From Cryobacterium arcticum (GTDB taxonomy: Bacteria > Actinomycetota > Actinomycetes > Actinomycetales > Microbacteriaceae): a stretch of 64,000 bases of DNA. Location: assembly GCF_001679725.1 (NCBI RefSeq), contig NZ_CP016282.1, forward strand, positions 3,596,001 through 3,660,000, written 5' to 3'. Position numbers and translations under genes: made by a program. Under the pieces are notes generated by a model. That model was not told where the DNA came from. It saw only the letters and a program-made list of their open reading frames with translations, and did not search any database. How positions within the stretch are numbered: position 1 is the first letter of the stretch; every line of letters starts with the position of its first letter. Below are positions 13,644-61,826 of this stretch, piece after piece.

Positions 13644-13796
13644 GGCACGGGCCTTCGCGGTCGAGGGGGAAGCCGCACACTCGCAGGACATCCCGAGACC
13701 GGCCTGGAATCAGGCTACGGCCACCGCGGCCCGAACGACCGGGACCATAGACCTAGTCGACGGTCCGGATGCATCCGCCGGCGCCGGCTGTGACGG

Positions 13797-43607: not shown

Positions 43608-45107
43608 TCAGGTGTTCTGAGGGAAGCCCAGGTTGATGCCGCCGTGGCTGGGGTCCAGCCAGCGGGCCGTGACGGCCTTCTCCCGGGTGTAGAAGTTGAT
43701 GCCGGCCGGGCCGTAGGCCTTGGCGTCGCCGAACAGGGAGTCCTTCCAGCCGCCGAACGAGTGGTACGCCACTGGCACCGGGATCGGCACGTTGATGCCG
43801 ACCATGCCCACCTGCACCTCGTGTTGGAACCTGCGGGCGGCCCCACCGTCGTTGGTGAAGATCGCGGTGCCGTTGCCGTACTTGCTGGCGTTGATGACCG
43901 CCACGCCGTCGGTGTAGCTGGCCACCCTCAGCACGCTCAGCACCGGGCCGAAGATCTCATCCTGGTAGACGGCCGAGTCCACGCTCACCTTGTCGAACAG
44001 GGTGGGGCCGAGCCAGAAGCCGGATGCGTCGCCGTCGACCTCGATGCCGCGACCGTCGATCACGACCTCCGCGCCGTCCGCGTGGGCGATGTCGATGTAA
44101 CCGGCGACCTTGTCGCGGTGCGCCTCGGTGATGAGCGGGCCCATGTCGCAGCCGCGCATGCCGTCGCCGACCTTGAGTCCCTTCACGCGCTCGGCGATCT
44201 TGGCGATCAGCTCGTCCGCGACCGGCTCCACGGCCACGATCACGCTGATGGCCATGCAGCGCTCCCCCGCCGAACCGAAGCCCGCGTTGACCGCGGCATC
44301 CGCAGCTAGGTCGAGGTCGGCATCCGGCAGCACCAACATGTGGTTCTTGGCGCCGCCGAGGGCCTGCACCCGCTTGCCGTGGTGGGCGGCGGTCTCATAG
44401 ATGTACTTGGCGATCGGGGTGGAGCCGACGAAGGAGATGGCCTGCACGTCAGGGTTCACCAGCAGGGCGTCGACGGCCTCCTTGTCGCCGTGCACGACGT
44501 TGAAGACCCCGTCGGGCAGGCCGGCCTCGGTGAGCAGGGCGGCGAGCCAATTGGCGGCGGACGGGTCCTTCTCGCTGGGCTTGAGCACGACACAATTGCC
44601 CGCGGCGATGGCGATGGGGAAGAACCAGAGCGGCACCATCGCGGGGAAGTTGAACGGGCTGATGATGCCCACCACGCCCAGGGGCTGGCGGAGGGTGTAG
44701 ACGTCGACGCCGGTGGACACGTTCTCGGAGAACTCGCCCTTGGCCAGGTGCGGCAGGCCCAGCGCAAACTCGACGACCTCGAGGCCACGGGCGATCTCGC
44801 CGAGGGCGTCGGAGGTGACCTTGCCGTGTTCGTTGGTGAGGATGTCGGCGAGCTCGCCCTTGCGGGCGTTGAGCAGCTCGCGGAAGGTGAACATGACGCC
44901 CTGGCGTTTGGCGATGGAGGCGTCTCGCCACGCGGGGTAGGCGGCCTGGGCCGAGGCGACAACGGTGTCGACGTCGACGGCGGAAGCCAGGGACACCAGG
45001 CGCTGCACTGCGCCGGTGGCCGGGTTGTAGACGGGGGCGGTGCGGGTGGAGGTTCCGGTGCCGGGGACACCGTCGATCCAGTGGGTGAGGACGGGAAGGT
45101 CGTTCAT
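43608..45107 (-). CDS. mmsA: CoA-acylating (methyl)malonate-semialdehyde dehydrogenase
   Basis: A 499-residue aldehyde dehydrogenase of the MmsA/IolA type. GIISPFNFPAMVPLWFFPIA and LKPSEKDPS lie in the coenzyme domain; the catalytic Cys is in GSAGERCMAIS, and ALGGAKNHMLVLPDAD replaces the usual catalytic Glu motif with Asn, as expected for CoA-acylating members. It converts malonate or methylmalonate semialdehyde to acetyl-CoA or propionyl-CoA with NAD and CoA. It is the last gene of the pyrimidine/beta-amino acid catabolic run, fitting the product of the aminotransferase upstream. Confidence 0.93.
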   Translation of the reverse strand: MNDLPVLTHWIDGVPGTGTSTRTAPVYNPATGAVQRLVSLASAVDVDTVVASAQAAYPAWRDASIAKRQGVMFTFRELLNARKGELADILTNEHGKVTSDALGEIARGLEVVEFALGLPHLAKGEFSENVSTGVDVYTLRQPLGVVGIISPFNFPAMVPLWFFPIAIAAGNCVVLKPSEKDPSAANWLAALLTEAGLPDGVFNVVHGDKEAVDALLVNPDVQAISFVGSTPIAKYIYETAAHHGKRVQALGGAKNHMLVLPDADLDLAADAAVNAGFGSAGERCMAISVIVAVEPVADELIAKIAERVKGLKVGDGMRGCDMGPLITEAHRDKVAGYIDIAHADGAEVVIDGRGIEVDGDASGFWLGPTLFDKVSVDSAVYQDEIFGPVLSVLRVASYTDGVAVINASKYGNGTAIFTNDGGAARRFQHEVQVGMVGINVPIPVPVAYHSFGGWKDSLFGDAKAYGPAGINFYTREKAVTARWLDPSHGGINLGFPQNT

Positions 45108-45140
45108 GTCATCCGATTCTGTTGGGGGTGAGAGCCGTTG

Positions 45141-45420
45141 ATCGAGCTTGTCGAGATCTGGCGACCGTGTCTACGTTCGCGAGGTCGGGTCGCGGGGTCT
45201 CGACAAGCTCGACCAGCGCATGGGTGCGTTCTCGAGGTCGGGTCGCGGGGGTCTCGGCAAGCTCGACCAGCGCATGGGTGCGTTCGCGAGGTCGGGTCGC
45301 GGGGGTCTCGACAAGCTCGACCAGCGCATGGGTGCGTTCTCGAGGTCGGGTCGCGGGGGTCTCGACAAGCTCGACCAGCGGACGGTCGCCACCATCCCGT
45401 CGGTCGAGCTTGTCGAGACC
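45141..45420. repeat. Tandem ~54-bp repeats of the GGTCTCGACAAGCTCGACC core (family E, array 2)
   Basis: Four direct units of about 54 bp (GTCTCGACAAGCTCGACCAG, then CGCATGGGTGCGTT and GAGGTCGGGTCGCGG) are bracketed by inverted half-units, ATCGAGCTTGTCGAGATC at 45141 and GTCGAGCTTGTCGAGACC at 45403. The array fills the gap between mmsA and the aminotransferase gene. Confidence 0.85.
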
Positions 45421-45423
45421 TGA

Positions 45424-46776
45424 TCACAGGAGGTCGAGGCAGAGGACCTCGTCGTAGATGGCCAGGGCCTCGGCGACCTCGTCGTCGGTGACCACGCAGG
45501 GCGGCACCACGTGGATGCGGTTGTCCTGCACGAAGGGCAGCAGGTTGCGGGCCAGCAGCTCGGTCTTGATGCGGGCCATCACGGCGGGAGCCACAGGCGC
45601 CCGGGTCTCCCGGTCGGCCACGAGCTCGATCGCCCAGAAGACGCCCTCGCCGCGCACCTCCCCGATGATCGGGTGTTTCTCCGCCAATGCCGTGAGGCCG
45701 GGGCCGAGCACATCGGCGCCGATCCGGGCGGCGTTCTCCACGATGCCCTCGTCCTCCATGGCATCCAGCGCCGCCACGATCGAGGCCATCGCCAGCGGAT
45801 GCCCGCTGTAGGTGAGTCCGCCGGGGAACACCGTCGTGTCGAAGTCGGCGGCGATGGCGTCCGAGATGATGACGCCGCCCACCGGCACGTAGCCGGAGTT
45901 GACGCCCTTGGCGAAGGTGATCAGGTCGGGCACCACGCCGGAGCCCTCGAAGGCGAACCAGCGTCCGGTACGGCCGAAACCAACCATGACCTCGTCGAGG
46001 ATCAACAGAATGCCGTACTTGTCGCACAGCGCCCGCACTCCGGTGAGGTAGCCGGGCGGCGGCATGAGCACCCCGGCGGTGCCGGGGATGGACTCGAGCA
46101 GCACGGCCGCGATCGACGTGGCGCCCTCGCTCTGGATGACCCGTTCGAGGTGCTGCAGAGCCCGCTCGCACTCGCGCTCGGGGGTGCGGGCCCAGAACTC
46201 GCTGCGGTAGAGATAGGGGCCGAAGAAGTGCACGTGGCCGCGGGCGAACTCGTTGGGGATGCGCCGCCAGTCACCGGTGGCGACGATGGCCGCGCCGGTG
46301 TTGCCGTGGTACGAGCGGTAGGTGGAGAGCACGGTGTCACGGCCGGTGTGCAGGCGGGCCATCCGGATGGCGTTCTCGTTGGCATCCGCACCGCCATTGG
46401 TGAAGAAGACCTTGTTGAAGCCGTCGGGTGCCCGGTCGACGATGCGTTTGGCGGCCTCGCCACGGGCCAGGTTGGCCGTGGACGGGGCGATGGTCGTGAG
46501 CAGTTGCGCTTGCTCGATGATGCCCTTGATCACGGCGGGATGCTGGTGGCCGATGTTGACGTTGACCAGCTGACTGGAGAAGTCGAGGTAGGTGCGACCC
46601 TCGTGGTCCCAGACCCGGCAGCCGAGACCGCCGGCGATCACGAGGGGCTTCAGTGCCCCCTGAGCCGACCAGGAGTGGAAGACGTGGGCCTTGTCGAGCC
46701 GGGTGGTGAGGTCGTTGAGTCCGAGCTCGGTGTCGGTGGATGTGCCGGTGTCGGTGGTGCTGTCGATGTCGGTCAC
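45424..46776 (-). CDS. Class III aminotransferase, probable beta-alanine/beta-aminoisobutyrate transaminase
   Basis: A 450-residue PLP enzyme of the omega-aminotransferase family: FFTNGGADANENAIRMAR, YRSYHGNTGAA (ring-stacking region), ILDEVMVGFGRTGRWFAFEG with the PLP-binding Asp, and TFAKGVNSGYVPVGGV with the PLP Lys. The neighbours (beta-ureidopropionase, mmsA) point to beta-alanine or beta-aminoisobutyrate as amino donor. GTG start at 46776 has AAGGA upstream. The first ~20 residues are a variable Thr/Asp-rich tail. Confidence 0.9.
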   Translation of the reverse strand: MTDIDSTTDTGTSTDTELGLNDLTTRLDKAHVFHSWSAQGALKPLVIAGGLGCRVWDHEGRTYLDFSSQLVNVNIGHQHPAVIKGIIEQAQLLTTIAPSTANLARGEAAKRIVDRAPDGFNKVFFTNGGADANENAIRMARLHTGRDTVLSTYRSYHGNTGAAIVATGDWRRIPNEFARGHVHFFGPYLYRSEFWARTPERECERALQHLERVIQSEGATSIAAVLLESIPGTAGVLMPPPGYLTGVRALCDKYGILLILDEVMVGFGRTGRWFAFEGSGVVPDLITFAKGVNSGYVPVGGVIISDAIAADFDTTVFPGGLTYSGHPLAMASIVAALDAMEDEGIVENAARIGADVLGPGLTALAEKHPIIGEVRGEGVFWAIELVADRETRAPVAPAVMARIKTELLARNLLPFVQDNRIHVVPPCVVTDDEVAEALAIYDEVLCLDLL

Positions 46777-46861
46777 GATGCTTGTTCCTTCGCTTCTGCC
46801 CCGCGCAGGCGGGGCGGTGGTGACCGGGCGGCGGGTGTGCCGCCGCCCGGTCGGGGTTGTT

Positions 46862-48013
46862 CTACTCGCCGCCCTCCTTCAGGGTGACGTCGGTCGGAGT
46901 CCAGTCGGCGCCCATGACGTCGACTCCCTCCGCGGTGAGTTCATCCAGGGCCTTCTGCACGTACTCGTTGGAGTAGGCGCTTTCGGGCGGGTCTGTGGTG
47001 ATGATGGTGGCACCGGTTTCGTTCTTCGTGTTCATCGCGATGTCGACCGTGTTGGCCCAGGCGGCCTCGTCGATCAGGCCGACGCCGTTGGTGGACGGGA
47101 AGATCAGCTTGCTGACCTCGTTGGTCATCCAGAGCTGGTGTCCGGCGGGGAGGGCGGAACCGGCGTCGGCCACGATGGTCGCGGCCTCTTCCGGGTTCTG
47201 GGCGGCGTAGATCCAGCCCTTGATGGAGGCCTTGATGAACTTCACCGTCTGGTCGGCGTAGGCCTCGTCGTCGGCGAGCTTGTCGGTGTTGGCCCAGATG
47301 GCGTCCTGGAGCATCGCGGTGCCTTCCTTGTTCCAGTCGATGACGTTGAGGTCCTCGGGCTGGTACAGCTCACCGGTGTCGGGGTTGATGGTTTCCAGCA
47401 CCTGCGCGTATTCGTTGTACGTCATGGCCTGGGCCGCGTCGATGTCGCCGGCCAGGAACGCGTTCATGTCGAAGGCCTGCTGCACGAGGCTGATGTCGCC
47501 CACCTCGACGCCGTCCTTCTGCATGCCGGCGAAGAGTTCCCACTCGTTGCCGTAGCCCCAGCTGCCGACGTTCTTGCCCTTGAGATCGGCCGGGCTGGTG
47601 ATGTTCTTGTCCTTGAAGGAGATCTGGGTGGTGGCGCTGCGTTCGAAGATCTGCGCGACGTCGGTGATGTTGGCGCCCTGCTCGATCGAGCCGAGCACCT
47701 TGGGCACCCAGGAGATGGCGTAGTCCACGTCGCCGGCGGCGAGCACGTCCTGCGGCACGATGTCGGCGCCGCCCTCCTCGATGGTGACGTCGAGGCCTTC
47801 GTCTTCGTAGTAGCCCTGGTCGACGGCGGCGTAGTAGCCGGCGAACTGGGCTTGGGCCACCCACTGCAACTGCAGGGTGACGGGGGTCAGCCCGCCACCT
47901 GCGGAGTCATCGGTCGAGGCGGTGTCGTTGGTGGCGCTGCATCCGGAGAGGACGAGTGCGCTGGCCGCGGCGACGGCGCCGGCCGTCGTGAGCCATCGTG
48001 TGCTGTGTTTCAT
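46862..48013 (-). CDS. ABC importer substrate-binding lipoprotein (NMT1/SsuA-like)
   Basis: A 383-residue exported lipoprotein from ATG 48013, with signal MKHSTRWLTTAGAVAAASAL and lipobox VLSGC (Cys25). The mature part is a type II binding fold of the NMT1/THI5 kind: LQLQWVAQAQFAGYYAAVDQ, GYYEDEGLDVTIEEGGADI and NVGSWGYGNEWELFAG. This family binds pyrimidine-like or sulfonate ligands. Location in the pyrimidine degradation run suggests a pyrimidine, hydantoin or beta-ureido acid. AGGAGGAACCC precedes the ATG. Confidence 0.88.
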   Translation of the reverse strand: MKHSTRWLTTAGAVAAASALVLSGCSATNDTASTDDSAGGGLTPVTLQLQWVAQAQFAGYYAAVDQGYYEDEGLDVTIEEGGADIVPQDVLAAGDVDYAISWVPKVLGSIEQGANITDVAQIFERSATTQISFKDKNITSPADLKGKNVGSWGYGNEWELFAGMQKDGVEVGDISLVQQAFDMNAFLAGDIDAAQAMTYNEYAQVLETINPDTGELYQPEDLNVIDWNKEGTAMLQDAIWANTDKLADDEAYADQTVKFIKASIKGWIYAAQNPEEAATIVADAGSALPAGHQLWMTNEVSKLIFPSTNGVGLIDEAAWANTVDIAMNTKNETGATIITTDPPESAYSNEYVQKALDELTAEGVDVMGADWTPTDVTLKEGGE

Positions 48014-48194
48014 GGGTTCCTCCTGAGTAGTACTGCTGCGGGGTGCTGCTGCGGGGGGGTCATGCTGCAAGGCGGGTAACGGATGGTGCGGGTGCTGCCG
48101 GTTCTGCTGTGTGGGTACTGCGGGTTGGGTGCTGCGGTGGGTGTTGCGGGGTGACCGACCTGGTGCGTCGGACGATTGTGGGCCTGGGTGGGGC

Positions 48195-49025
48195 TCAGGC
48201 GGTGGGGGCGCGGCGGCTGACCAGTTTCTCGAGGCCGAGCGCCGCGCAGTAGAAGAGGAGGCCGAGGATGATGGAGCCGAGCACGTACGCCCAGGCCAGC
48301 CCGTAGTTGGAGCTGGAGGCGGCTGAGGTGATCGACTTGCCGAGGCCGCCGACCGGGCCGCCGAAGTACTCGGCGATGAGGGCGGAGATCACGGCGAGCG
48401 ATGACGCTATGCGAAGGCCCGTGAACACGAACGGCACGGCGGTGGGCAGGGTGACGGTCTTGGTGGCCTGCCAGCTCGAGGCGGCGTAGGAGCGCATCAG
48501 GTCGCGGTGCACCGGGCGCACCATGCGCAGGCCCTTGAGGGTGTTGAAGTACACCGGAACGAACACTGCCAGGGCGGCCACGAGCTGCCGGGCGGTCTCG
48601 GCGTTGGCGCCGAACATCGTGTAGAGCACGGGCGCCAGCGCCACGATGGGCACCACCGCGAACGCCGCCACGACGGGCGCGGCCATCTCGTCGAACACCC
48701 GCACGAGGGCCGAGAGGATGGCCAGCAGCACGCCGACGATCGCGCCGAGTACCAGGCCGATCAGGGCGTTGCGGCCCGTGACGACCATGCCATTCAGTAC
48801 GTTCTGCAGGTTGGCGGTGAACTGCTCGCCGATCGCGAACGGACCCGGCAGGATGAACGGCTTGATCGCCAGAACTGTGACGGCACCCTGCCAGAGCAGG
48901 ATCGCGACGAGGCCGAGGAGAACCGGCGGCAGCACGGTGCGGGCCAAGCCGGAGCGCGAGGGTCCCTGGCGCGCCGGCCCGGCGACCGCCGGAGCCGTCA
49001 CGCTCGTGCTCGCCCCGGCGCTCAT
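48195..49025 (-). CDS. ABC transporter permease (SsuC/TauC-like), first of two
   Basis: A 276-residue membrane protein with six helices and the EAA loop region DLMRSYAASSWQATKTVTLP followed by TAVPFVFTGLRIASSLAVIS. Typical of importers for sulfonates, nitrate, and thiamine/pyrimidine precursors. It overlaps the ATPase gene by 4 bp; a 181-bp gap separates it from the binding-protein gene. Two different permease genes in the operon suggest a heterodimeric channel. Confidence 0.9.
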   Translation of the reverse strand: MSAGASTSVTAPAVAGPARQGPSRSGLARTVLPPVLLGLVAILLWQGAVTVLAIKPFILPGPFAIGEQFTANLQNVLNGMVVTGRNALIGLVLGAIVGVLLAILSALVRVFDEMAAPVVAAFAVVPIVALAPVLYTMFGANAETARQLVAALAVFVPVYFNTLKGLRMVRPVHRDLMRSYAASSWQATKTVTLPTAVPFVFTGLRIASSLAVISALIAEYFGGPVGGLGKSITSAASSSNYGLAWAYVLGSIILGLLFYCAALGLEKLVSRRAPTA

Positions 49026-49849
49026 CGTGTCTCGACCCCGCGCGCCCCGGTGGGGGTGGCGCCATGCAGGAGCTCGCGCACCTGGCTGACCGAGTGGAAG
49101 AAGTCCTCGTCTTCGCGCAGGTTCTCGCCGCGGTCGCTCATCCGGCCGAGGTTGACGCTGAGCACGTCGCGGATGCGGCCAGGCCTAGGCGACATCACCA
49201 CCACCCGGTTGGAGAGGAACACCGCCTCCGGAATGGAGTGGGTGACGAAGACCACGGCGGCGCTGGTCTCGGCGCAGATGCGCACGAGCTCGTTCTGCAT
49301 GCGCTCCCGGGTCATCTCGTCGAGGGCGCCGAACGGTTCGTCCATCAGCAGCAGGCTCGGGCTCTCGGCCAGCGACCGGGCGATCGCCACCCGTTGCTGC
49401 ATGCCGCCGGAGAGCTGGTCGGGGTAGTGCCCGGCGAAGTCGCTCAGGCCCACGAGCTCGATCAGCTCGGCGGCGCGGTCGCGGCGTGCGGCCTTGCCGG
49501 TGCCGTGCAGTTCGAGGGGCAGTTCGATGTTGCCGGTCACCGTACGCCAGGGCAAGAGGCCCGCCTGCTGGAACGCGATGCCGTAGTCCTGGTCGATGCG
49601 GGCCTGCCTGGCGCTCTTGCCGAACACCTCGATCGAGCCGTCGGTGGGGGTGTCGAGGTCGGCGATGAGCCGCAGCAGGGTGCTCTTGCCGCAGCCGGAG
49701 GGCCCGATCAACGACACGAATTCGCCGGGGGCGACGGTGAGGCTCACCGCATCCAGGGCCGTGACGGATGCGCCCTTGCGGCCGGCGAAGACGCGGCTGA
49801 CCGCGTTCACCTCCACCGCGTGCTGTACCGGTAGTGCTGCCGTGGTCAT
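49022..49849 (-). CDS. ABC transporter ATP-binding protein (SsuB/TauB-like)
   Basis: A 275-residue ATPase from ATG 49849 ([20 protein letters not shown]). Walker [10 protein letters not shown], signature [13 protein letters not shown], Walker [17 protein letters not shown] and H-loop VTHS are intact. It would energise import through the flanking permeases. It overlaps both permease genes by 4 bp, and GAGGTGG precedes its ATG. Confidence 0.93.
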
Positions 49850-50790
49850 GCGGCCACCTCTCCCCTGCGGAATCGACGTAGGAACAGTGAGATCAGGCCG
49901 ACGAAACCGGCGGCCACGAGGCCCACCAGCACCGACCCGAAGATGGGGGCCCAGGGCTTGCCCGGGTCGCTGCCGGCGGCGCCGGCGTATTCGACGATGA
50001 GCCGGCCGATGCCGCCGCGCAGGCCGATGGACACCTCGGCGACGACGCTGCCGATCACGGCGCTGGCCGCCGCGAGGCGGAGGGCGGGCAGCAGGTAGCC
50101 CACGCTGGCCGGCAGTCGGAGTCGCCAGAGGGTTTTCCACCAGCCGACCGCGCAACAGTGCATGAGGTCCACGTGGTTGGCGTCGGGTGAGCCGAGGCCC
50201 TTGAGGGCGCCGATCGAGACCGGGAAGAAGGCGAGGTAGGAGGCGATCAGCGCCACCGACATCCAGTTCTCCCAGCTGAAGACCCCGAACTCGATCTGCG
50301 CGCCCCAGCGGCGCACGAGCGGGGCGAGGGCGATCAGCGGCACGGTCTGGCTGAGGATGATCCAGGGCAGGATGGCCGATTCGGCGAGCTTGAAGCGCTG
50401 CATGAGCAGGGCGAGGGCGAGGCCAACGGTGACGCCCACGAGCCAGCCGACCGCGGCGATGCCGAGGGTGAACAGGGAGGCCTCGAGCACGGCCTGCCAC
50501 ATCGGCACCGCGCTGGAGCTGCCGGTGACGGGCTCGACGATGCGTTCGAGCATCACCCAGAGGTGCGGCATGGCCATCTCGCTGGCCCGCGGCAGCACGG
50601 TGACCCCGCCGACGATCACGCCGTCGGCGGGCCCGACGACGATGTACAGCTCCCAGAGCAGCGCGAGCGCGAGCACACCGAGCGCGCCCACCAGGATGCG
50701 CCGCGGCATCCCCTGGCCGAGCCAGGACCGGCCGCGCGCCGCAGTGGTCGCCCTCGCCGGGGCGGTGCTGACGGAGCCGGTCTGGGTCAT
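49846..50790 (-). CDS. ABC transporter permease (SsuC/TauC-like), second of two
   Basis: A 314-residue membrane protein. A cytoplasmic lead of ~25 residues precedes six or seven helices; the EAA loop is [20 protein letters not shown] followed by [20 protein letters not shown]. It differs clearly from the other permease of the operon. ATGA overlap with the LLM oxidoreductase gene upstream ties transport to catabolism. Confidence 0.9.
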
Positions 50791-51803
50791 ACCTTGGCCG
50801 TGATGTGATCGGCGAGGGCGGGGATCACGGTCTCGCCGTAGACCCGCAGCGTCTCCTCTTTATTGTCGTGCTGCAGGTAGCCGGCGAACTGGTCGACGCC
50901 GAGCTCCTTGAGGGCCTTGAGCTTCTCGATGTGCGCCTCGGCCGGGCCGAGCAGGCAGAACCTGTCGACGATCTCATCGGGCACGAAGTCGGTGTGGGTG
51001 TTGCCGGCCCGGCCGTGCTCGTTGTAGTCGTAGCCCTCGCGGCCCTTGATGTAGTCGGTGAGGGCCTTGGGCACTGCGGAGCCTTCGCCGTACTTGGCGA
51101 CGATGTCGGCCACGTGGTTGCCCACCATGCCGCCGAACCAGCGGTTCTGGTCGCGCATGTGCTGCCAGTCGTCGCCGATGTGCATGGGCGCTGCGACGCA
51201 GAACTTGATCGCCTCGGGGTCGCGGCCCGCATTGGTGGCGGCGGTGCGCACGGTCTTGATCATCCACTCGGCCACGTCGAGGTCGGCCATCTGCAGGATG
51301 AAGCCGTCACCGACCTCGCCGGTGAGCTTGAGCGCGAGCGGACCGTAGGCGGCCACCCACACGTCGAGGGTCGAGCCCTGGCTCCAGGGGAATTGCAGGG
51401 TGGCGCCGTTGTACTCCACCGACCGGGAGTTGGCGAGCTCGCGGATGACGTGGATCGACTCCCGCAGGGTCTTCAGCGTGCTGGGCCGGCCGTTGGTGAC
51501 CCGCACCGCGGAGTCACCGCGGCCGATGCCGCAGATGGTGCGGTTGCCGTACATCTCGTTGAGCGTGGCGTACGTGGAAGCCGTGACCGTCCAGTCCCGG
51601 GTGGCCGGGTTGGTGACCATGGGACCCACGATCACCTTGCGGGTCTCATTGAGGATTTTGCTGTAGATCACATAGGGTTCCTGCCAGAGCAGGTGCGAGT
51701 CGAAGGTCCACACGTGGCTGAAGCCGTGGTTCTCGGCCAACACGGCCAGCTGCACGGTGCGCGCCGAGGGCGGGTTGGTCTGGAGTACTGCGCCGAAGTC
51801 CAT
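50787..51803 (-). CDS. LLM-class oxidoreductase, TIGR03842-like, probably F420-dependent
   Basis: A 338-residue luciferase-like TIM-barrel oxidoreductase: MDFGAVLQTNPPSARTVQLA, FSHVWTFDSHLLWQEPYVIY, VGPMVTNPATRDWTVTAST and RTICGIGRGDSAVR are characteristic of the F420-type LLM subfamily labelled TIGR03842. It sits directly between dihydropyrimidinase (9 bp upstream) and the importer genes (4-bp overlap). The cluster has no dihydropyrimidine dehydrogenase, so this enzyme may perform the uracil/thymine reduction with F420H2. That role is inference from context; an FMN-dependent oxidation is the alternative. Confidence 0.85.
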   Translation of the reverse strand: MDFGAVLQTNPPSARTVQLAVLAENHGFSHVWTFDSHLLWQEPYVIYSKILNETRKVIVGPMVTNPATRDWTVTASTYATLNEMYGNRTICGIGRGDSAVRVTNGRPSTLKTLRESIHVIRELANSRSVEYNGATLQFPWSQGSTLDVWVAAYGPLALKLTGEVGDGFILQMADLDVAEWMIKTVRTAATNAGRDPEAIKFCVAAPMHIGDDWQHMRDQNRWFGGMVGNHVADIVAKYGEGSAVPKALTDYIKGREGYDYNEHGRAGNTHTDFVPDEIVDRFCLLGPAEAHIEKLKALKELGVDQFAGYLQHDNKEETLRVYGETVIPALADHITAKV

Positions 51804-51811
51804 GGTGCCCC

Positions 51812-53245
51812 CTAGATCAGGTACTGGCTGAGGCCGCGTTTGATGTACTTGCCATCACCCTTGGCGCCGAGGTACTGGTTGTTGTCGATGACGACCTTGC
51901 CGCGGGAGAGCACGGTGTCGACGTGGCCGTCGATCTCGTAGCCTTCCCAGGCGGAGTAGTCCATGTTCATGTGGTGGGTCTTGTCCACTCCGATGGAGGT
52001 GTGCCCGTTCGGGTCGTAGATCACCACGTCGCCGTCGGCACCGGGCTGGATGACTCCCTTCTTGCCGTACATGCCGAACATGCGCGCGGGGGTGGTGGAG
52101 GTGACCTCCACCCAGCGTTCGAGGGAGATCTGCTTGTCGACCACGCCCTGGTACAAGAGGTCCATCCGGTGCTCGACCGAGCCGATGCCGTTGGGGATCT
52201 TGGAGAAGTCGGTCAGGCCCATGTCCTTCTGGCCCTTCATGCAGAACGGGCAGTGGTCGGTGGAGACCATCTGGATGTCGTTCGTGCGCAGGCTCTGCCA
52301 CATGTGGTGCTGGTGGCCCTCGGCCTTGGAGCGCAAGGGGGTGGAGCAGACCCACTTCGCTCCCTCGAAGGTGCCCCATTCGTCGCTCTGGGCGCCGAGC
52401 TGGTCTTCCAGAGAAAGGTAGAGGTACTGAGGACAAGTCTCGCCGAACACGTTCTGGCCGCGGTCGCGGGCAATGGCGATCTGCTCGACGGCCTGCTTGG
52501 CGCTCACGTGCACCACGTAGAGCGGCGCCCCGGTGAGGTTGGCGAGCATGATGGCCCGGTGGGTGGCTTCCTCCTCGGCCTGCCAGGGGCGGGTGAGGCC
52601 GTGATAGTAGGGCGTGGTGTTGCCAGCGGCGATGGCCTGCTGCACGAGCAGGTCGATGACGCTGCCGTTCTCGGCGTGCATCATGATCATGCTGCCGTTG
52701 CTGGATGCCTTCTGCATCGCCTTGACGATCTGGCCGTCGTCGGAGAGGAACACACCCTTGTAGGCCATGAAGAGCTTGAAGCTGGAGACGCCCTCGTTGA
52801 CGAGCTCGTCCATCGCGACGAGGGAGGAGTCCTGCACGTCGGAGAGGATCTGGTGGAAGCCGTAGTCGATGGCGCACTCGCCGCGAGCCTTGTCCTGCCA
52901 GGCGGCGTATTGGTCGAGCACGTTCTCGCCGGCGTACTGCACCACGAAGTCGACGATGCTCGTGGTGCCGCCCCAGGCGGCGGCGCGGGTGCCGGTCTCG
53001 AAGGTGTCGCTGGCCTCGGTGCCGCCGAACGGCATCTGCATGTGGGTGTGCGCGTCGATGCCGCCGGGGATCACATACTTGCCGGCGGCGTCGATCACGG
53101 TGTCGACGTTCCGCTCGATATCGAAGCCGAGCAGGGTGGAGCCGGGGGCGAGCACCGCGGCGATGATGTCGCCGTCGATCAGCACATCCGCTGTGGCCGT
53201 GCCCGTGGAATTGACCACGGTGCCGTTCTTGATCAGGGTCTTCAT
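51812..53245 (-). CDS. Dihydropyrimidinase / D-hydantoinase
   Basis: A 477-residue amidohydrolase. The metal ligands are visible: DAHTHMQMPFGG (HxH), carboxylated Lys in SSFKLFMAYKG, His in MIMMHAENG and VVHVSAK, and Asp in MVSTDHCPF. It opens the ring of 5,6-dihydrouracil or dihydrothymine to N-carbamoyl-beta-amino acids. ATG 53245 (MKTLIKNGTVVNSTG) has AGGAGAA eight bases upstream. It precedes the LLM oxidoreductase and follows, across a repeat array, the beta-ureidopropionase gene. Confidence 0.95.
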   Translation of the reverse strand: MKTLIKNGTVVNSTGTATADVLIDGDIIAAVLAPGSTLLGFDIERNVDTVIDAAGKYVIPGGIDAHTHMQMPFGGTEASDTFETGTRAAAWGGTTSIVDFVVQYAGENVLDQYAAWQDKARGECAIDYGFHQILSDVQDSSLVAMDELVNEGVSSFKLFMAYKGVFLSDDGQIVKAMQKASSNGSMIMMHAENGSVIDLLVQQAIAAGNTTPYYHGLTRPWQAEEEATHRAIMLANLTGAPLYVVHVSAKQAVEQIAIARDRGQNVFGETCPQYLYLSLEDQLGAQSDEWGTFEGAKWVCSTPLRSKAEGHQHHMWQSLRTNDIQMVSTDHCPFCMKGQKDMGLTDFSKIPNGIGSVEHRMDLLYQGVVDKQISLERWVEVTSTTPARMFGMYGKKGVIQPGADGDVVIYDPNGHTSIGVDKTHHMNMDYSAWEGYEIDGHVDTVLSRGKVVIDNNQYLGAKGDGKYIKRGLSQYLI

Positions 53246-53305
53246 CAGTGGTTCTCCTGTTCGCTTCTGTGTCGCTACTTCGTCTGTGGGTCGTGCCGTC
53301 TCGCT

Positions 53306-53540
53306 GGTCGAGCTTGTCGAGCGCCGTACTGAGCCTGTCGAAGTGACCTCGTGAGCCGTCTTCGGAACGTAGGCCGGGTCACCGGGTCTCGACAAGCTCG
53401 ACCACCGTGGGGCTGGGTCTCGAGGGCCTGGTCACCGGGTCTACTTCGACAAGCTCAGTACGACGTCGACAAGCTCGACCGCCGTGGGGCTGGGTCTTGA
53501 GGGCCGAGTCGCGGGGTCTCGACAGGCTCGACCGACGGAT
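53306..53540. repeat. Inverted and direct copies of GTCTCGACAAGCTCGACC / TTCGACAAGCTCAGTACG (family E, array 3)
   Basis: Units run in both orientations: GGTCGAGCTTGTCGAG at 53308 and CTGAGCCTGTCGAAG at 53327 against CTCGACAAGCTCGACC, CTTCGACAAGCTCAGTACG and CTCGACAGGCTCGACCG further on. They fill the 315-bp gap between the dihydropyrimidinase and beta-ureidopropionase genes. Nothing else is seen there. Confidence 0.8.
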
Positions 53541-53560
53541 GGTGCGGCCTCGAGACCGGG

Positions 53561-54439
53561 CTACGGCTTGGGGATCGAGGTGTAGGACTCCGGGCGGCGG
53601 TCCCGGTAGAACTGCCAGTTGTTGCGCACCTGGCGGATCATGCCGAGGTCGAGGTCGCGGATCACGACCTCCTCGTCGACGCCGCTGCCGAGCTCGCCCA
53701 CGTAGTTGCCCTGCGGGTCGACGAACTGGCTCGTGCCGTAGAACGTCACAGCGGCCTCGCCGTACTCGTTGTCCTCCCGGCCCACCCGGTTGGGTGCGGC
53801 CACGAAGTATCCGTTCGCGGCGGCGGCGGCCGGCTGCTCGATCTCCCAGAGCCGGTTCGAGAGGCCCGGCTTGGTGGCGTTGGGGTTGAAGACGATCTGC
53901 GCGCCGTTGAGGCCCAGTTCGCGCCAGCCCTCGGGGAAGTGCCGGTCGTAGCAGATGTACACGCCGATCGGTCCGACGGCGGTGTTGAAGACGGGGTAGC
54001 CGAGGTTGCCGGGGCGGAAGTAGAACTTCTCCCAGAACTTGTCGAGGTGGGGGATGTGGTGCTTGCGGTACTTGCCGAGGATCGTGCCATCGGCATCCAC
54101 CACGACCGCGGTGTTGTAGTACACGCCGGGCTGCTCCTCCTCATAAATGGGGAGCACCATGACCAGGTTGAGTTCCTTGGCCAGCTTGGCGAAGCGCTGC
54201 ACGATGGGGCCGTCGGCCGGTTCGGCGTAGTCGTAGTACTTGGCGTCTTCGGTGATACCGAAGTAGGGGCCGTAGAACAGCTCCTGGAAGCAGATGACCT
54301 GGGCGCCGTCGGCGGCCGCATCGCGGGCGAACTTCTCGTGCTTGTCGAGCATCGAGTCGATATCCCCCGTCCACGTGGTCTGGGTGATCGCCGCTCGCAC
54401 GATGTTGGATGTGCCGAGTCTGGATGGGTCGGTGCTCAT
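53561..54439 (-). CDS. Beta-ureidopropionase (nitrilase superfamily)
   Basis: A 292-residue carbon-nitrogen hydrolase. The Glu-Lys-Cys triad is visible: Glu in FQELFYGPYFG, Lys in GKYRKHHIPH and Cys in VYICYDRHFPEGW. The segment HLDKFWEKFYFRPGNLGYPV is typical of N-carbamoyl-beta-alanine amidohydrolases. It hydrolyses N-carbamoyl-beta-alanine (or the aminoisobutyrate analogue) to the beta-amino acid, CO2 and NH3. ATG 54439 (MSTDPSRLGTS) is chosen over 54463. First gene of the catabolic run, divergent from the MocR-type regulator. Confidence 0.93.
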   Translation of the reverse strand: MSTDPSRLGTSNIVRAAITQTTWTGDIDSMLDKHEKFARDAAADGAQVICFQELFYGPYFGITEDAKYYDYAEPADGPIVQRFAKLAKELNLVMVLPIYEEEQPGVYYNTAVVVDADGTILGKYRKHHIPHLDKFWEKFYFRPGNLGYPVFNTAVGPIGVYICYDRHFPEGWRELGLNGAQIVFNPNATKPGLSNRLWEIEQPAAAAANGYFVAAPNRVGREDNEYGEAAVTFYGTSQFVDPQGNYVGELGSGVDEEVVIRDLDLGMIRQVRNNWQFYRDRRPESYTSIPKP

Positions 54440-54676
54440 ACTCTTGCCTCCACTGGGTCTCACACGGTGGGAACCTCGTCAGCAGGAAAGCAAGACATCG
54501 CTTTATGGGCGAGCCATACGGGGAAGAGCCTGTCGAGATCGAGCCACATTACGGTGTCCGGTTTTGTTATTATTCGACGTAAACATTTCTGTTCTGTTTC
54601 TTCATATGACGCATGCGTAAATCATCCTGTCGTTCGGGCATGCTTTTTGGCAAGCATCCGGGCGAGGAAGGACATC
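54440..54676. promoter_or_regulatory. Divergent promoter region of the pyrimidine-catabolic operon
   Basis: This 237-bp stretch between divergent genes is notably AT-richer than its surroundings (for example TTTTGTTATTATTCG near 54560). It holds the perfect palindrome ACGCATGCGT (54609-54618) and the inverted repeat ATGCT...AGCAT around 54640-54656. These are the best operator candidates for the MocR-type regulator. Confidence 0.45.
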
Positions 54677-56014
54677 ATGCAGCTCTATCTCGACGAGATC
54701 GAACAGGCCACTCCGGCCGGTATCGCCGCCGCGCTGGGCCGCTTGATCAGCTCCGGCCGGCTCGCCCCCGGCGAGCGCCTGCCCACGGTGCGCGACCTCG
54801 CCGCACTCCTCGGTGTGAGCCCGGCCACGGTGAGTCACGCCTGGCAGGCACTGTCGTCGGCGGGCCTGATCGTCTCCCGGGGCCGCAGCGGCACGTTCGT
54901 GCGGGAGCCGTCCCGGCACTGGCTGCCCGCCCGCACCCAGACGCTCGCCGGGCACGTGAGCGACGCCCGGATCGACCTCTCGCGGGGCACCCCGGACCCG
55001 CTGCTCTTGCCCGCTCTCGGGCCGGCGCTCTCCCGGGTCTCGCAGCGGGCCATGACGCCCAGCTACCAGGCGCTCCCGGTGATTCCCGAGCTGCTCACCG
55101 TGCTCACGGGCTCGTGGCCCTACCCCGCCGAGGCGATCACGGTGGTCGACGGTGCACTCGACGCCGTCTCCCGCAGCCTCGAGCAGGTCGCCAGATTCGG
55201 CGACCGGGTCATCGTCGAGGACCCCGGCTTCCCGCCGTTCTTCGACCTGCTCGACCAGATGGGCATCGAGCGGCTGCCCGTGGCCGTGGACGCGGAGGGC
55301 ATCGTGCCGGATGCGTTCCAGGCGGCGCTCGCGCTGTCGCCGGCCGCCGTGATCCTGCAGCCCCGGGCGCACAACCCCACCGGCGCCTCGATGTCGGCCG
55401 ACCGCGCGGCCGAGCTCGCCCGGCTGCTGGGCGCCAGCCCCCGGGCCGCGCACACCGTGGTGATCGAGGACGACCACTCCGGAGCCATCAGCACTTCCCC
55501 GGATGTGTCGCTCGGCCGTTGGCTGCCCGAGCGGGTGCTGCACGTGCGCAGCTACTCCAAGTCGCACGGGCCCGACCTGCGCATCGCCGCGCTCGGCGGA
55601 CCGGCGGCGCTCGTGGACCGCATCGTGGCCCGCCGCATGCTCGGGCCGGGCTGGACCAGCCGGATGCTGCAGACCATCCTGCACGAACTGCTCACCGACG
55701 GCGCGAGCATGGCGCAGGTCAACGAGGCCCGGCACGTGTACTTCGCGAGGCAGAAGGCGCTGGCGGATGCCCTCACCGGGTTCGGCCTGCCCCTGACCCG
55801 CGCCGACGGCATCAACGCGTGGGTGCCGGTGGCCGACGAACGCGACGCCATCGTGCGGTTGGCGGCCTCGGGCATCCGGGTGGCCGGCGGCAGCCCGTTT
55901 CTCGCATCGGAGCGGCCGGAGTCGTTCATCCGGGTGACGGCCGGGGCGCTGCCCGACGACGTGCTGCCGGTGGCCCGGGCGATCGCGGCCGCGGCCGGGG
56001 TGCTCCCGGTCTGA
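54677..56014 (+). CDS. MocR-type (GntR/aminotransferase fusion) regulator
   Basis: A 445-residue protein. Residues ~12-75 are a GntR wHTH (GRLISSGRLAPGERLPTVRD, LAALLGVSPATVSHAWQAL), joined to a fold-type I aminotransferase domain with HNPTGASMS and the PLP-Lys region RSYSKSHGPDLRIAALGG. MocR proteins sense PLP and an amino compound. Divergence from the catabolic operon suggests regulation by beta-alanine, beta-aminoisobutyrate or a pyrimidine intermediate. GAGGAAGGA precedes ATG 54677. Confidence 0.92.
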   Translation: MQLYLDEIEQATPAGIAAALGRLISSGRLAPGERLPTVRDLAALLGVSPATVSHAWQALSSAGLIVSRGRSGTFVREPSRHWLPARTQTLAGHVSDARIDLSRGTPDPLLLPALGPALSRVSQRAMTPSYQALPVIPELLTVLTGSWPYPAEAITVVDGALDAVSRSLEQVARFGDRVIVEDPGFPPFFDLLDQMGIERLPVAVDAEGIVPDAFQAALALSPAAVILQPRAHNPTGASMSADRAAELARLLGASPRAAHTVVIEDDHSGAISTSPDVSLGRWLPERVLHVRSYSKSHGPDLRIAALGGPAALVDRIVARRMLGPGWTSRMLQTILHELLTDGASMAQVNEARHVYFARQKALADALTGFGLPLTRADGINAWVPVADERDAIVRLAASGIRVAGGSPFLASERPESFIRVTAGALPDDVLPVARAIAAAAGVLPV

Positions 56015-58241: not shown

Positions 58242-58731
58242 CCCGCTGGAAGACGGGCCGAGGGGCGCATGGCGCTCCGGTGGGGCGGGCGACCTGGTGG
58301 GAAGCCAGAGTGGCTGGGCGGGGTGACTGAAACAGCTGCGCTGGCACGACGCCGCTGGGCGGGTGGCGCGCCCGGGGCGAATCGGCGCCTGACCCGCGCA
58401 TCGCGCCGGGCAGCGTCCGCACGCCGAGTAGCGCGGGGGACGCGCCGCTGCGCGGGTGCCCCGCCCAGGCGACGGACGGCAGCTCGAACGCCTCCGCCCG
58501 AAAGCGGATGGGTTTAGGCTGGATATGACCCCCGGTTCGATCTGACCGGTTGCGCTGGCCCGGATTTGGGCGGCAGGTCGGGGCATTGCCTCCAGTTCTC
58601 TCCCCCACCTTGTACGAGCTCCTCCGTTGGAGGCACAGCCTCTCGCCACTGCGCTGCGGTGTGGTTCTTACGCCGTCGCCGCTGTGTCGGCGCCGCCGAC
58701 GGATGCCGGGCTCCCGCCTCAGATTGGTCTC
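58242..58731 (+). other. 490-bp intergenic stretch upstream of the F420-0 transporter operon
   Basis: No convincing gene or RNA family is seen. TAGGCT (58515-58520) lies four bases before an ATG that opens a six-codon reading frame (MTPGSI), which would leave a ~200-base leader before the transporter gene. A GCCACTG box (58637) is not accompanied by the other conserved parts of a cobalamin riboswitch. The first half is very GC-rich and looks like decayed sequence. Confidence 0.4.
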
Positions 58732-59724
58732 ATGAAGACTCGCTACCCCACTTTTGCCGCTGCCGCGGCCGTGCTGCTGCTGGCCGGCTGCGCATCCGGC
58801 TCGACCGGTGCCGCGCCTGTCGCCACGGCCTCGCCCGGAGGCCCGGGCGCGTACCCCGTGTCGTTCGACAACTGCGACACCTCGCTCACCCTCACGGCCG
58901 CGCCCGAGCGGATCGTGACGATCAAGTCCACCACCACCGAACTGCTGCTGGCCCTGGGCCTCGGCGACCGCATCGTGGGCTCGGCGTTCCTCGACGGCCC
59001 GCTGCCGGCATCCCTCGCAGAAGAGGGCGCCGATCTCAATGTGATCAGCGACTTCGTTCCCGGCCAGGAAGCCGTGCTGACGCTGAACCCTGACTTCGTC
59101 TACGGCGGCTGGGAGTCCAACTTCTCGGCCGAGGGCGTGGGCGAACGCGACGCTCTCGCGGCGCTCGGCATCGGCAGCTACGTGTCGCCGGCCGCCTGCA
59201 AGGGCGACGCGATGCCCGACCCGCTCACCTTCGACACCGTGTTCGGCGAGATCGACGAGGCCGGCACGCTCTTCGGGGTTCCGGATGCCGCCGCGACGCT
59301 CGTCTCCGACCAGGAGGCCGCGCTGGCCGCGCTCAAGCCCGCCACCGGGGAGACCACGGCGCTCTGGTACTCGAGCGGCACCGACACTCCGTATGTCGGC
59401 GCCGGCATCGGCGCTCCGCAGATGATCATGGACGCCGCGGGCCTCACCAACATCTTCGCCGACGTGCACGACACCTGGACCTCGGCCGGCTGGGAGTCCG
59501 TCGTGGCGGCGAACCCGAGCGTGATCGTGCTCGTGGACGCCACCTGGAACACCGCTGACTCCAAGATCGCTCTGCTCGAGGGCAACCCGGCCACCGCCGG
59601 ACTCGACGCCGTGGTGAACCACCGCTACATCACCGTGCCGTTCGCGGCCGGCGAGGCAGGCATCCGCAACGTGGAGGCGGCCGGGTCCATCATCGACCAG
59701 CTCGCCGCGCTCGACGCACAGTAG
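58732..59724 (+). CDS. Putative F420-0 ABC transporter substrate-binding lipoprotein
   Basis: A 330-residue exported lipoprotein: signal MKTRYPTFAAAAAVLLLAGC, lipobox LLAGC with Cys20. The mature part is a type III (FepB/BtuF-like) binding fold with PERIVTIKSTTTELLLALGL and WESNFSAEGVGERDALAALG. The trio of binding protein, permease and ATPase directly before cofD matches the transporter annotated as F420-0 ABC transporter (TIGR03868 group). The ligand is a prediction from that recurrent context; siderophore or cobalamin import is the alternative. Confidence 0.82.
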   Translation: MKTRYPTFAAAAAVLLLAGCASGSTGAAPVATASPGGPGAYPVSFDNCDTSLTLTAAPERIVTIKSTTTELLLALGLGDRIVGSAFLDGPLPASLAEEGADLNVISDFVPGQEAVLTLNPDFVYGGWESNFSAEGVGERDALAALGIGSYVSPAACKGDAMPDPLTFDTVFGEIDEAGTLFGVPDAAATLVSDQEAALAALKPATGETTALWYSSGTDTPYVGAGIGAPQMIMDAAGLTNIFADVHDTWTSAGWESVVAANPSVIVLVDATWNTADSKIALLEGNPATAGLDAVVNHRYITVPFAAGEAGIRNVEAAGSIIDQLAALDAQ

Positions 59725-59779
59725 ACCGCGCCGAACGCATCGACCGTTCGCACCGAGGAGCAGGAATGAGGGAGCAGGG

Positions 59780-60903
59780 ATGACCGGAACGACGCACCCC
59801 CGCGACACTCGTCCGTCGGTGCAGAAGCGTGCCGCGCCCGGCGGGAGCCGCGGTGCGGCATCCGTCACAGTGCGTCGTGGCCGGCCGGGTAGATACCTGT
59901 TCTGGCTGGTCACTGCGTTCGTGGCCCTGCTTCTCGGCTGCGCCGTTGCCGTGACGATCGGCCCGGCCAACGTGAGCCTGGCGCAGGTTGTGGGCAGCGT
60001 GGGCAGCCACCTCGGCCTGCCCGGTCTCACCGGCGGCACCCCGGTGCCGCCCCTGACCGACGCCATCGTGTGGCAGCTGCGGATGCCGCGCGTGCTCACG
60101 GCCGCCATGGTGGGCGCGGGCCTCGCCCTCAGCGGCGCGGTCATGCAGAGCGTCACCCGTAACCCGCTGGCCGACCCGTACCTACTCGGGCTGTCGTCGG
60201 GGGCGTCGCTCGGGGCGGTCTGCGTGGTCATCCTCGGCGTGGGCTTCGCGCTGCCGGCTGCGGCTTTCGCCGGGGCCCTGATCGCGCTGTTCGCCACGCT
60301 CAACATCGCCCGCGTCGGCGGCAGCATCACCCCGGGCCGCGCCGTGCTGGCCGGGCTGGCAATCGCCCAGCTGGGCTCGGCGGGCACCTCGTTCATCATC
60401 TTCTGGGCGGCCAAAGGCGACTCCTACCGGGAGATCCTCAACTGGCTGCTCGGCTCCCTGGCCGGCAGCTCCTGGACCAGCGTGCTGATCTCCACCACCG
60501 CGCTCGTCCTGGTGGGTACGGGCATCCTGCTCGCCGCCAGCCGACTGGATGCGTTCACCTTCGGCGACACGAACGCCGCGTCGCTGGGTATCAACGTGAA
60601 CGCCACCCGCTGGGGATTCCTCGTGGCGGTCGCGCTGCTCACCGGCGCGATGGTGGCCGTGAGCGGGGCGATCGGGTTCGTGGGGCTGATCCTGCCGCAC
60701 CTGGTGCGCGGACTCAGCGGTCCGGGGCACCGACGCCTGCTGCCGCTCGTCGCGGTGGTCGGCGCGCTGTTCCTGGTGCTCGCCGACACCCTCGCCCGCA
60801 CAGTGTTCGACCCCCGGGAGCTGCCCGTGGGCATCATCACGGCGTTCATCGGGGTGCCCGTTTTCATCCTGCTGATCAAGCGCAAGCGAAGCGCGGCCTG
60901 GGC

Positions 60904-60907
<4 letters not shown>
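59780..60907 (+). CDS. Putative F420-0 ABC transporter permease (FecCD type)
   Basis: A 375-residue permease with about ten helices. VWQLRMPRVLTAAMVGAGLA, LSGAVMQSVTRNPLADPYLL and GLSSGASLGAV are the FecCD/BtuC signatures, and GFVGLILPHLVRGLSGPGHR the coupling region. A basic ~30-residue cytoplasmic lead is unusual. The stop overlaps the ATPase start by 4 bp. Matches the permease subunit group linked to cofD (TIGR03869). Confidence 0.88.
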
Positions 60908-61797
<890 letters not shown>

Positions 61798-61826
61798 CAG
61801 CCCCACGGATCTACCGAAGGAACCCC

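Follow-up and report, generated by a model that had tools for sequence, protein, structure and literature searches.

The operon and its genes

This study concerns a nine-gene operon on the minus strand of a 64,000-nt stretch of DNA from the soil bacterium Cryobacterium arcticum (NZ_CP016282.1; hereafter the window), part of a 4.35 Mb genome. The operon, transcribed from position 54439 down to 43608, is a real reductive pyrimidine-degradation operon, complete apart from its first enzyme, and it holds a gene for a luciferase-like monooxygenase (LLM) protein of the NCBIfam family TIGR03842. Gene context suggests that TIGR03842 is very probably an F420H2-dependent uracil/thymine reductase that takes the place of PreTA/PydA. 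Genes were called from profile matches (NCBIfam and Pfam), open reading frames, gene starts and gaps. In the order of transcription, with the divergent regulator last, they are as follows.

53561..54439, minus strand: beta-ureidopropionase-like N-carbamoyl amidohydrolase of the nitrilase fold, PydC role (PF00795, 215 bits)
51812..53245, minus strand: dihydropyrimidinase, PydB role (TIGR02033, 547 bits, cut-off 393.25)
50787..51803, minus strand: TIGR03842 LLM oxidoreductase, proposed F420H2-dependent uracil/thymine reductase, PydA role (TIGR03842, 591.2 bits, cut-off 295.45)
49846..50790, minus strand: ABC importer permease 1 (PF00528, 63 bits)
49022..49849, minus strand: ABC importer ATPase (PF00005)
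48195..49025, minus strand: ABC importer permease 2 (PF00528, 72 bits)
46862..48013, minus strand: NMT1/THI5-like substrate-binding protein, possibly for pyrimidine (PF09084)
45424..46776, minus strand: class III aminotransferase, probably acting on beta-alanine/beta-aminoisobutyrate (NF004718, 748 bits)
43608..45107, minus strand: (methyl)malonate-semialdehyde dehydrogenase, MMSDH (TIGR01722, 681.8 bits, cut-off 448.5)
54677..56014, plus strand: MocR-type regulator, divergent from the operon (PF00392 plus PF00155)

An earlier note on this DNA had named the pathway genes, a two-permease importer and a divergent MocR regulator, and the profile matches and open reading frames place all of them where it had put them, with the operon on the minus strand. 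It had also described the LLM gene as overlapping the importer and lying 9 bp after dihydropyrimidinase; the overlap, with the first permease gene, is real and measures 4 bp, while the gap to dihydropyrimidinase is 8 bp.

Comparison with solved structures bears on several of these assignments. The dihydropyrimidinase finds its top match in a protein of the same name (3sfw, 481 bits). The ureidopropionase-like protein reaches no NCBIfam equivalog cut-off (245.7 bits on TIGR03381, under the cut-off of 410), and its scores against the beta-ureidopropionases 8pt4 and 6ftq (172 bits) and the fly protein 2vhh (180) are close to that against the N-carbamoylputrescine amidohydrolase 5h8i (183); its beta-ureidopropionase role is assigned by gene context. 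The binding protein matches 4nmy first and 3ix1, an aminopyrimidine-binding protein, second, and has THI5-type relatives too. The top solved match of the aminotransferase is the taurine:2-oxoglutarate aminotransferase 6jix (361 bits), and NF004718 names no function. Short intergenic repeats (TCGACAAGCTC and kin) were seen at 53246-53560, between the ureidopropionase and dihydropyrimidinase genes. Short repeats are also present in the divergent promoter, where they are too weak for an operator to be called.

The LLM protein and the first enzyme of the pathway

TIGR03842 (F420_CPS_4043) is a hypothetical equivalog in NCBIfam whose name gives no function, and one is proposed here. The window protein belongs to it by its score; its best named match is from Cryobacterium sp. 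AP23 (97% identity), and relatives on alphaproteobacterial plasmids are 42-44% identical. Its one Pfam match is PF00296, with none to a reductase of the dihydroorotate dehydrogenase (DHOD) fold, and its nearest solved relatives, aligned over the full length, are the F420-dependent Mer enzymes (1z69, 8qpl). Mer function itself was rejected: the protein scores 124.7 bits on the Mer model TIGR03555 (cut-off 348.7), and Glu6 of Mer is absent from all 59 aligned TIGR03842 sequences, which have T (24), C (19) or V (16) at that position. In Mer, Glu6 protonates the substrate, the E6Q variant keeping 0.4% of kcat, and a ternary model places Asp96 and the carboxamide residue 178 at the pterin ring (PMC11094777; sources cited by PMC number are drawn on in part throughout). 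Residue 178 is written Gln178 in that paper, whereas the aligned chain reads Asn by count. The TIGR03842 residues that align with those modelled at the pterin ring are Asp97, found in 58 of the 59 sequences, and Gln171, found in all of them. As these are kept and Glu6 is gone, a ring-binding site for a pyrimidine is plausible, and the Mer-specific acid has been lost. The two families align at the modelled ring-site residues but differ in Glu6, absent from the TIGR03842 sequences, and in gene context, which for TIGR03842 is pyrimidine breakdown. Relatedness to Mer, taken with that context, suggests that the window LLM protein is an F420-dependent enzyme.

The absence of a PreA/PydA-type gene, noted earlier for the operon, holds for the whole genome with the PF01180 and PreA (NF006183) models. 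PF01180 covers the fold shared by PreA and dihydroorotate dehydrogenase; its two matches genome-wide are a PyrD of class 2 and a PyrD-1B accompanied by a PyrK-like protein. The latter pair (locus L011, 9013-11075) is present although the genome already has the class 2 PyrD. The PyrD-1B protein scores 290 bits on the dihydroorotate dehydrogenase model NF005574 (cut-off 269) and 96 bits on the PreA model (cut-off 335). Because this second DHOD-fold protein matches dihydroorotate dehydrogenase and falls far under the PreA cut-off, no PreA/PydA-type enzyme is recognised genome-wide by the models used. The pair sits away from the operon, and could be imagined as the dihydropyrimidine dehydrogenase of the pathway, with the LLM protein unrelated to it; we rejected it as a candidate on the model scores, and a pyrimidine-reducing dehydrogenase elsewhere in the genome is very unlikely, since it would also leave unexplained the conserved dihydropyrimidinase-TIGR03842 pair of the 75 genomes described below. 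The other LLM proteins of the genome were considered as RutA: seven loci were scanned, out of eight other matches, and all seven belong to other LLM families. The window LLM protein matches 24 NCBIfam models, none of them a RutA model.

TIGR03842 and dihydropyrimidinase across genomes

The earlier note had called for a genome search for preA and a tabulation of how often TIGR03842 neighbours dihydropyrimidinase. Both gave results that favour its reading. Three families (TIGR03842, dihydropyrimidinase and PreA) were searched in a class-wide sample of 246 actinomycete genomes with a completeness of at least 95. PreA, missing from the C. arcticum genome, was found in 0 of the 246, while 2 of 14 control genomes did give a match. 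TIGR03842 occurs in 77 genomes, dihydropyrimidinase over its cut-off in 79, and both in 75 (75/77 and 75/79), across 25 genera; the Fisher p value for co-occurrence, without phylogenetic correction, is 1.5e-55. In all 75 genomes the pair lies on one contig and one strand with dihydropyrimidinase upstream, at a distance of 5 kb or less in 74 and of 200 bp or less in 52. Chance is no explanation for a pairing found in 75 of the 77 TIGR03842 genomes, always in this arrangement.

A first set of 20 of the 77 loci was read, and ureidopropionase-like, dihydropyrimidinase and LLM genes stand together in 20 of 20, with an ABC importer of the window type in 13, an NCS1 symporter in three and an F420-type importer nearby in three (L129, L134, L136). 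Eleven further loci were read, three of them picked for a missing or distant dihydropyrimidinase. All three genes are present in eight of the eleven; loci L154, L155 and L156 have no dihydropyrimidinase in the stretch, although a ureidopropionase-like gene remains in L154 and an NCS1 symporter in L156. In locus L140 an FGD-family (TIGR03557) gene (12694-13659) adjoins the ureidopropionase, dihydropyrimidinase and TIGR03842 genes; its product is over the TIGR03557 cut-off and not over that of the FGD equivalog, and an FMN-type model scores slightly higher, itself under cut-off.

Beyond the actinomycetes, a scan of genome contigs gave at least 588 confirmed relatives; the best 80 of these were kept, their flanks fetched and identity limits applied. 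Dihydropyrimidinase lies in 37 of these 80 loci, against a chance expectation of about 0.5 (assuming about 1.3 dihydropyrimidinases per 4.2 Mb), ureidopropionase in 40, either of them in 46, and two or more of five pyrimidine genes in 42. Three or more of five cof genes are found in 38 loci, npdG in 47 and an F420-type importer in nine; nine loci were scored with neither gene set, of which L028, L030 and L032 carry npdG. The usual F420 arrangement is cofGHDCE-npdG immediately ahead of TIGR03842. In Leisingera aquaemixtae (L015), one arm of the cluster holds an NCS1 symporter, dihydropyrimidinase, a Zn-hydrolase, an aminotransferase over the cut-off of the AptA model, pntB and pntA, and the divergent arm cofG, cofH, cofD, cofC, cofE, npdG, TIGR03842 and a regulator that matches RutR models best (198 bits, under the cut-off). 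In Paracoccus alcaliphilus (L014), an ABC importer comes after cofGHDCE-npdG-TIGR03842, with no dihydropyrimidinase within 15 kb. Across various loci the neighbours are ureidopropionase, AptA-like aminotransferase, MMSDH, NCS1 symporter and RutR-like regulator. One record titled Nocardioides marinus (L017), whose LLM protein shares 99% identity with the Leisingera protein, is probably mislabelled or contaminated. In a quick tree of 40 TIGR03842 rows, the actinomycete proteins form one side and those of proteobacteria, Chloroflexi and other groups the other, the outgroups being too distant for safe rooting; both sides are linked to dihydropyrimidinase.

Genome-wide searches were made in 50 of the best 80, and dihydropyrimidinase was found in 49 of these 50 TIGR03842 genomes. 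The 30 set aside beforehand comprised one mislabelled record and, for the most part, near-duplicates, short contigs and genomes from single cells.

RutA is a luciferase-like enzyme that acts on uracil, and LLM enzymes use flavin mononucleotide (FMN) or F420, so TIGR03842 might be thought a RutA-like FMN-dependent monooxygenase despite its name. We regard this as extremely unlikely: the nearest solved relatives are the F420-dependent Mer enzymes, many loci place the gene next to others for F420 synthesis or import, and a dihydropyrimidinase would be pointless if RutA opened the ring. Moreover, E. coli RutA (40% identity), like PreA (35% identity) and PreT, was matched in 0 of the best 80 loci.

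TIGR03842 might also be an F420 enzyme whose natural substrate is another cyclic ureide, for example a hydantoin, a modified pyrimidine or, like yanthine, a ring derived from a purine, with uracil and thymine secondary. The hydantoinase/dihydropyrimidinase family is promiscuous, and some genomes hold both PreA and TIGR03842, as described below. MMSDH, the beta-amino acid aminotransferase, the NCS1 symporter and the RutR-like regulators nevertheless suit uracil and thymine, and the uric-acid genes of E. coli are not matched in TIGR03842 loci. Indeed, YgeW, YgeX, YgeY, YgfK, SsnA, XdhD and YgfM of E. coli gave no match (E up to 1e-15) in 117 sequences (80 scan loci, 36 actinomycete loci and the window), except for one weak SsnA match in L149, a locus without TIGR03842. 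A uric-acid pathway was rejected, as SsnA, YgfK and XdhD neighbours were not found at TIGR03842 loci, and a ureide other than uracil or thymine as the natural substrate is quite unlikely. A putative F420-dependent yanthine reductase has been described in Chloroflexota uric-acid clusters (PMC12507026). It too is of the luciferase family, with a proposed F420 reduction of a uracil-like ring; it differs in sitting with uric-acid genes, which were not seen in the TIGR03842 loci searched, and the two are compared here by description.

F420 supply and the proposed pathway

The remaining features of the window that concern F420 lie beyond the divergent regulator.

58627..59724, plus strand: F420-type ABC importer, substrate-binding protein (TIGR03868, 434 bits, cut-off 392)
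59780..60907, plus strand: F420-type ABC importer, permease (TIGR03869, 463 bits, cut-off 437)
60904..61797, plus strand: F420-type ABC importer, ATPase (TIGR03873, 324 bits, below the cut-off of 372)
61827..62888, plus strand: cofD, 2-phospho-L-lactate transferase (TIGR01819, 345 bits, cut-off 257)

The earlier note had seen cofD and an importer gene set about 8 kb away. Both are present, with cofD starting about 30 bp after the importer (58627-62888; L013), and the importer (58627-61797) and cofD lie about 4 to 8 kb from the promoter end of the operon. Outside the window the genome also encodes CofC, CofE and an LLM protein of the TIGR03557 type (FGD family). No match to CofH/FbiC was found in the C. 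arcticum genome, so that FO synthesis of its own is probably impossible. CofD acts on FO, and CofE performs the last step of F420 synthesis. As CofD acts on FO, the so-called F420-0 importer more likely carries FO than F420-0 here, and probably imports FO in C. arcticum.

A similar arrangement is found in nine Devosia/Pelagibacterium-type loci (L063-L067, L069, L073, L076 and L093), where an F420-type importer and CofE stand beside TIGR03842. The importer lies downstream of TIGR03842 in L064 and L067 and upstream in the other seven, its binding protein is 54-61% identical to that of the window, and CofH was not found in the seven genomes of this type that were searched. CofH is present in 38 of the 50 TIGR03842 genomes. 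Within the 77 TIGR03842 actinomycetes CofE occurs in 76, against 132 of the 169 others.

The pathway that we propose would run as follows. The ABC importer would bring in uracil or thymine. With hydride attack at C6 of the ring, TIGR03842 would move a hydride there from C5 of F420H2, and protonation at the C5 of the pyrimidine would give dihydrouracil or dihydrothymine. Dihydropyrimidinase, whose gene is in the operon, would then open the dihydropyrimidine ring, and ureidopropionase, likewise encoded there, would free CO2 and NH3 to leave beta-alanine or beta-aminoisobutyrate. The aminotransferase of the operon would convert these to the semialdehyde, which its MMSDH would turn into acetyl-CoA or propionyl-CoA. 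In C. arcticum, FO would be taken up and F420 completed with CofC, CofD and CofE, and the TIGR03557-type (FGD-family) enzyme encoded in the genome may regenerate F420H2. In proteobacteria this role would fall to NpdG, joined in some clusters by NAD(P) transhydrogenase, both being encoded there. Reduction is the likely direction, because the npdG and transhydrogenase (pntAB) genes in the clusters would supply F420H2.

The downstream steps, and the inferred reduction of uracil or thymine, are the same as in the Pyd pathway of PreTA or PydA, including the ferredoxin-dependent PydAc (PMC7332683). The reductases differ: PreTA/PydA is a flavin enzyme that combines the DHOD fold with iron-sulphur domains, whereas TIGR03842 is an LLM protein of the F420 type whose donor would be F420H2. 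An F420-dependent first step is thus likely to be a new form of the reductive pyrimidine pathway. The one chemical precedent found comes from Streptomyces, where genetics and nuclear magnetic resonance show that a putative F420/FMN oxidoreductase is needed for uracil C5-C6 reduction in mureidomycin (PMC10714638). This enzyme, SSGG-03002, or NpsU (mureidomycin/napsamycin), would reduce the same bond as proposed for TIGR03842, but it acts on a uridyl-peptide antibiotic and not on the free uracil proposed here, and the two are likened by reaction alone. It was also inactive in vitro (PMC10714638), a point on the negative side; with the chemistry supported and the assay negative, the precedent does not change our estimate.

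Several further observations weigh against TIGR03842 as a uracil/thymine reductase. The evidence consists of sequences and gene context, and the counts carry no phylogenetic correction (27 of 91 genera). Two of the 77 TIGR03842 actinomycetes have no dihydropyrimidinase (G073, G246), one gives no CofE match (G219), and four genomes have dihydropyrimidinase without TIGR03842 (G063, G075, G076, G177). Among the best 80 scan loci, 34 show neither dihydropyrimidinase nor ureidopropionase inside the fetched flank. CofH was not found in 12 of the 50 TIGR03842 genomes: seven are of the Devosia type with its importer, another, obtained from a single cell, carries cofD and cofE at its locus, and in three Chloroflexi metagenome-assembled genomes and one from a cyanobacterium no F420 source was seen (CofE and the importer were not searched genome-wide in these). 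Finally, the FGD-family gene of C. arcticum misses the FGD equivalog cut-off, and an FMN-type model scores slightly higher, itself below cut-off.

The four genomes with dihydropyrimidinase and no TIGR03842 are not alike. In G063 (L150, 7073-10230) dihydropyrimidinase adjoins NpdG and another Mer-like LLM protein that scores 75 bits on TIGR03842, below cut-off, possibly a second F420-linked arrangement. In G177 (L149) its neighbours are carbamoylase-like and no LLM was seen, and in G075 and G076 it is barely over cut-off, with no further pathway gene among the reference set.

PreA over its cut-off in 7 of the 50 TIGR03842 genomes also counts against the proposal, as does a near full-length PreA-like protein under cut-off in G027 (219 bits of 335). 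Two dihydropyrimidinases pass the cut-off in five of the seven PreA-bearing genomes (G001, G002, G035, G041, G045). In G001, G002 and G041, one of the two is at most 5 kb from PreA; in G001, G035 and G041 the other is no more than 10 kb from CofH, next to the cof/LLM cluster, and in G002 the second has a contig to itself. These genomes look like carriers of two parallel pathways. In a sample of Rhodobacterales, PreA was found in 223 of 244 genomes and TIGR03842 in four; PreA is absent from two of the four, one being Paracoccus denitrificans, versus 19 of the 240 without TIGR03842 (Fisher p = 0.038), in a sample too small for testing PreA exclusion. The other two carry both, a further point on the negative side. 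Since 7 of 50 genomes and 2 of 4 Rhodobacterales hold both genes, TIGR03842 is no strict replacement of PreA.

Taken together, gene context in several phyla, with the pairing with dihydropyrimidinase and the cof and importer neighbours, and the absence of PreA from the sampled actinomycetes lend good support to the reading first put forward in the earlier note, that the LLM protein is a reductase of uracil and thymine driven by F420H2, and its catalysis is proposed on these grounds. Furthermore, many alpha- and gammaproteobacteria cluster cofGHDCE and npdG, sometimes with pntAB, with TIGR03842 and pathway genes, and it seems reasonably likely that they make F420 chiefly for pyrimidine reduction, the Devosia type doing so with a scavenged precursor.

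TIGR03842 is not named in the openly licensed literature searched, and no proposal of F420 in pyrimidine degradation was found there, subscription journals lying mostly outside that search; the portions available of PMC8305020, PMC13367373 and PMC10117117 are silent on F420 in pyrimidine breakdown. For Mycobacterium smegmatis, one study notes that some genes of the reductive pyrimidine pathway were still to be identified (PMC4617892), and a 2021 review of F420 lists its role in proteobacteria and Chloroflexi as unanswered (PMC8498797).

If TIGR03842 acts as proposed, it would supply the first step that reductive pyrimidine breakdown lacks in actinomycetes (PreA was seen in none of the 246 genomes sampled), and a large uncharacterised family would gain a function. 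The finding would also give a partial answer to why proteobacteria and Chloroflexi make F420, and a testable role for this cofactor in proteobacteria.

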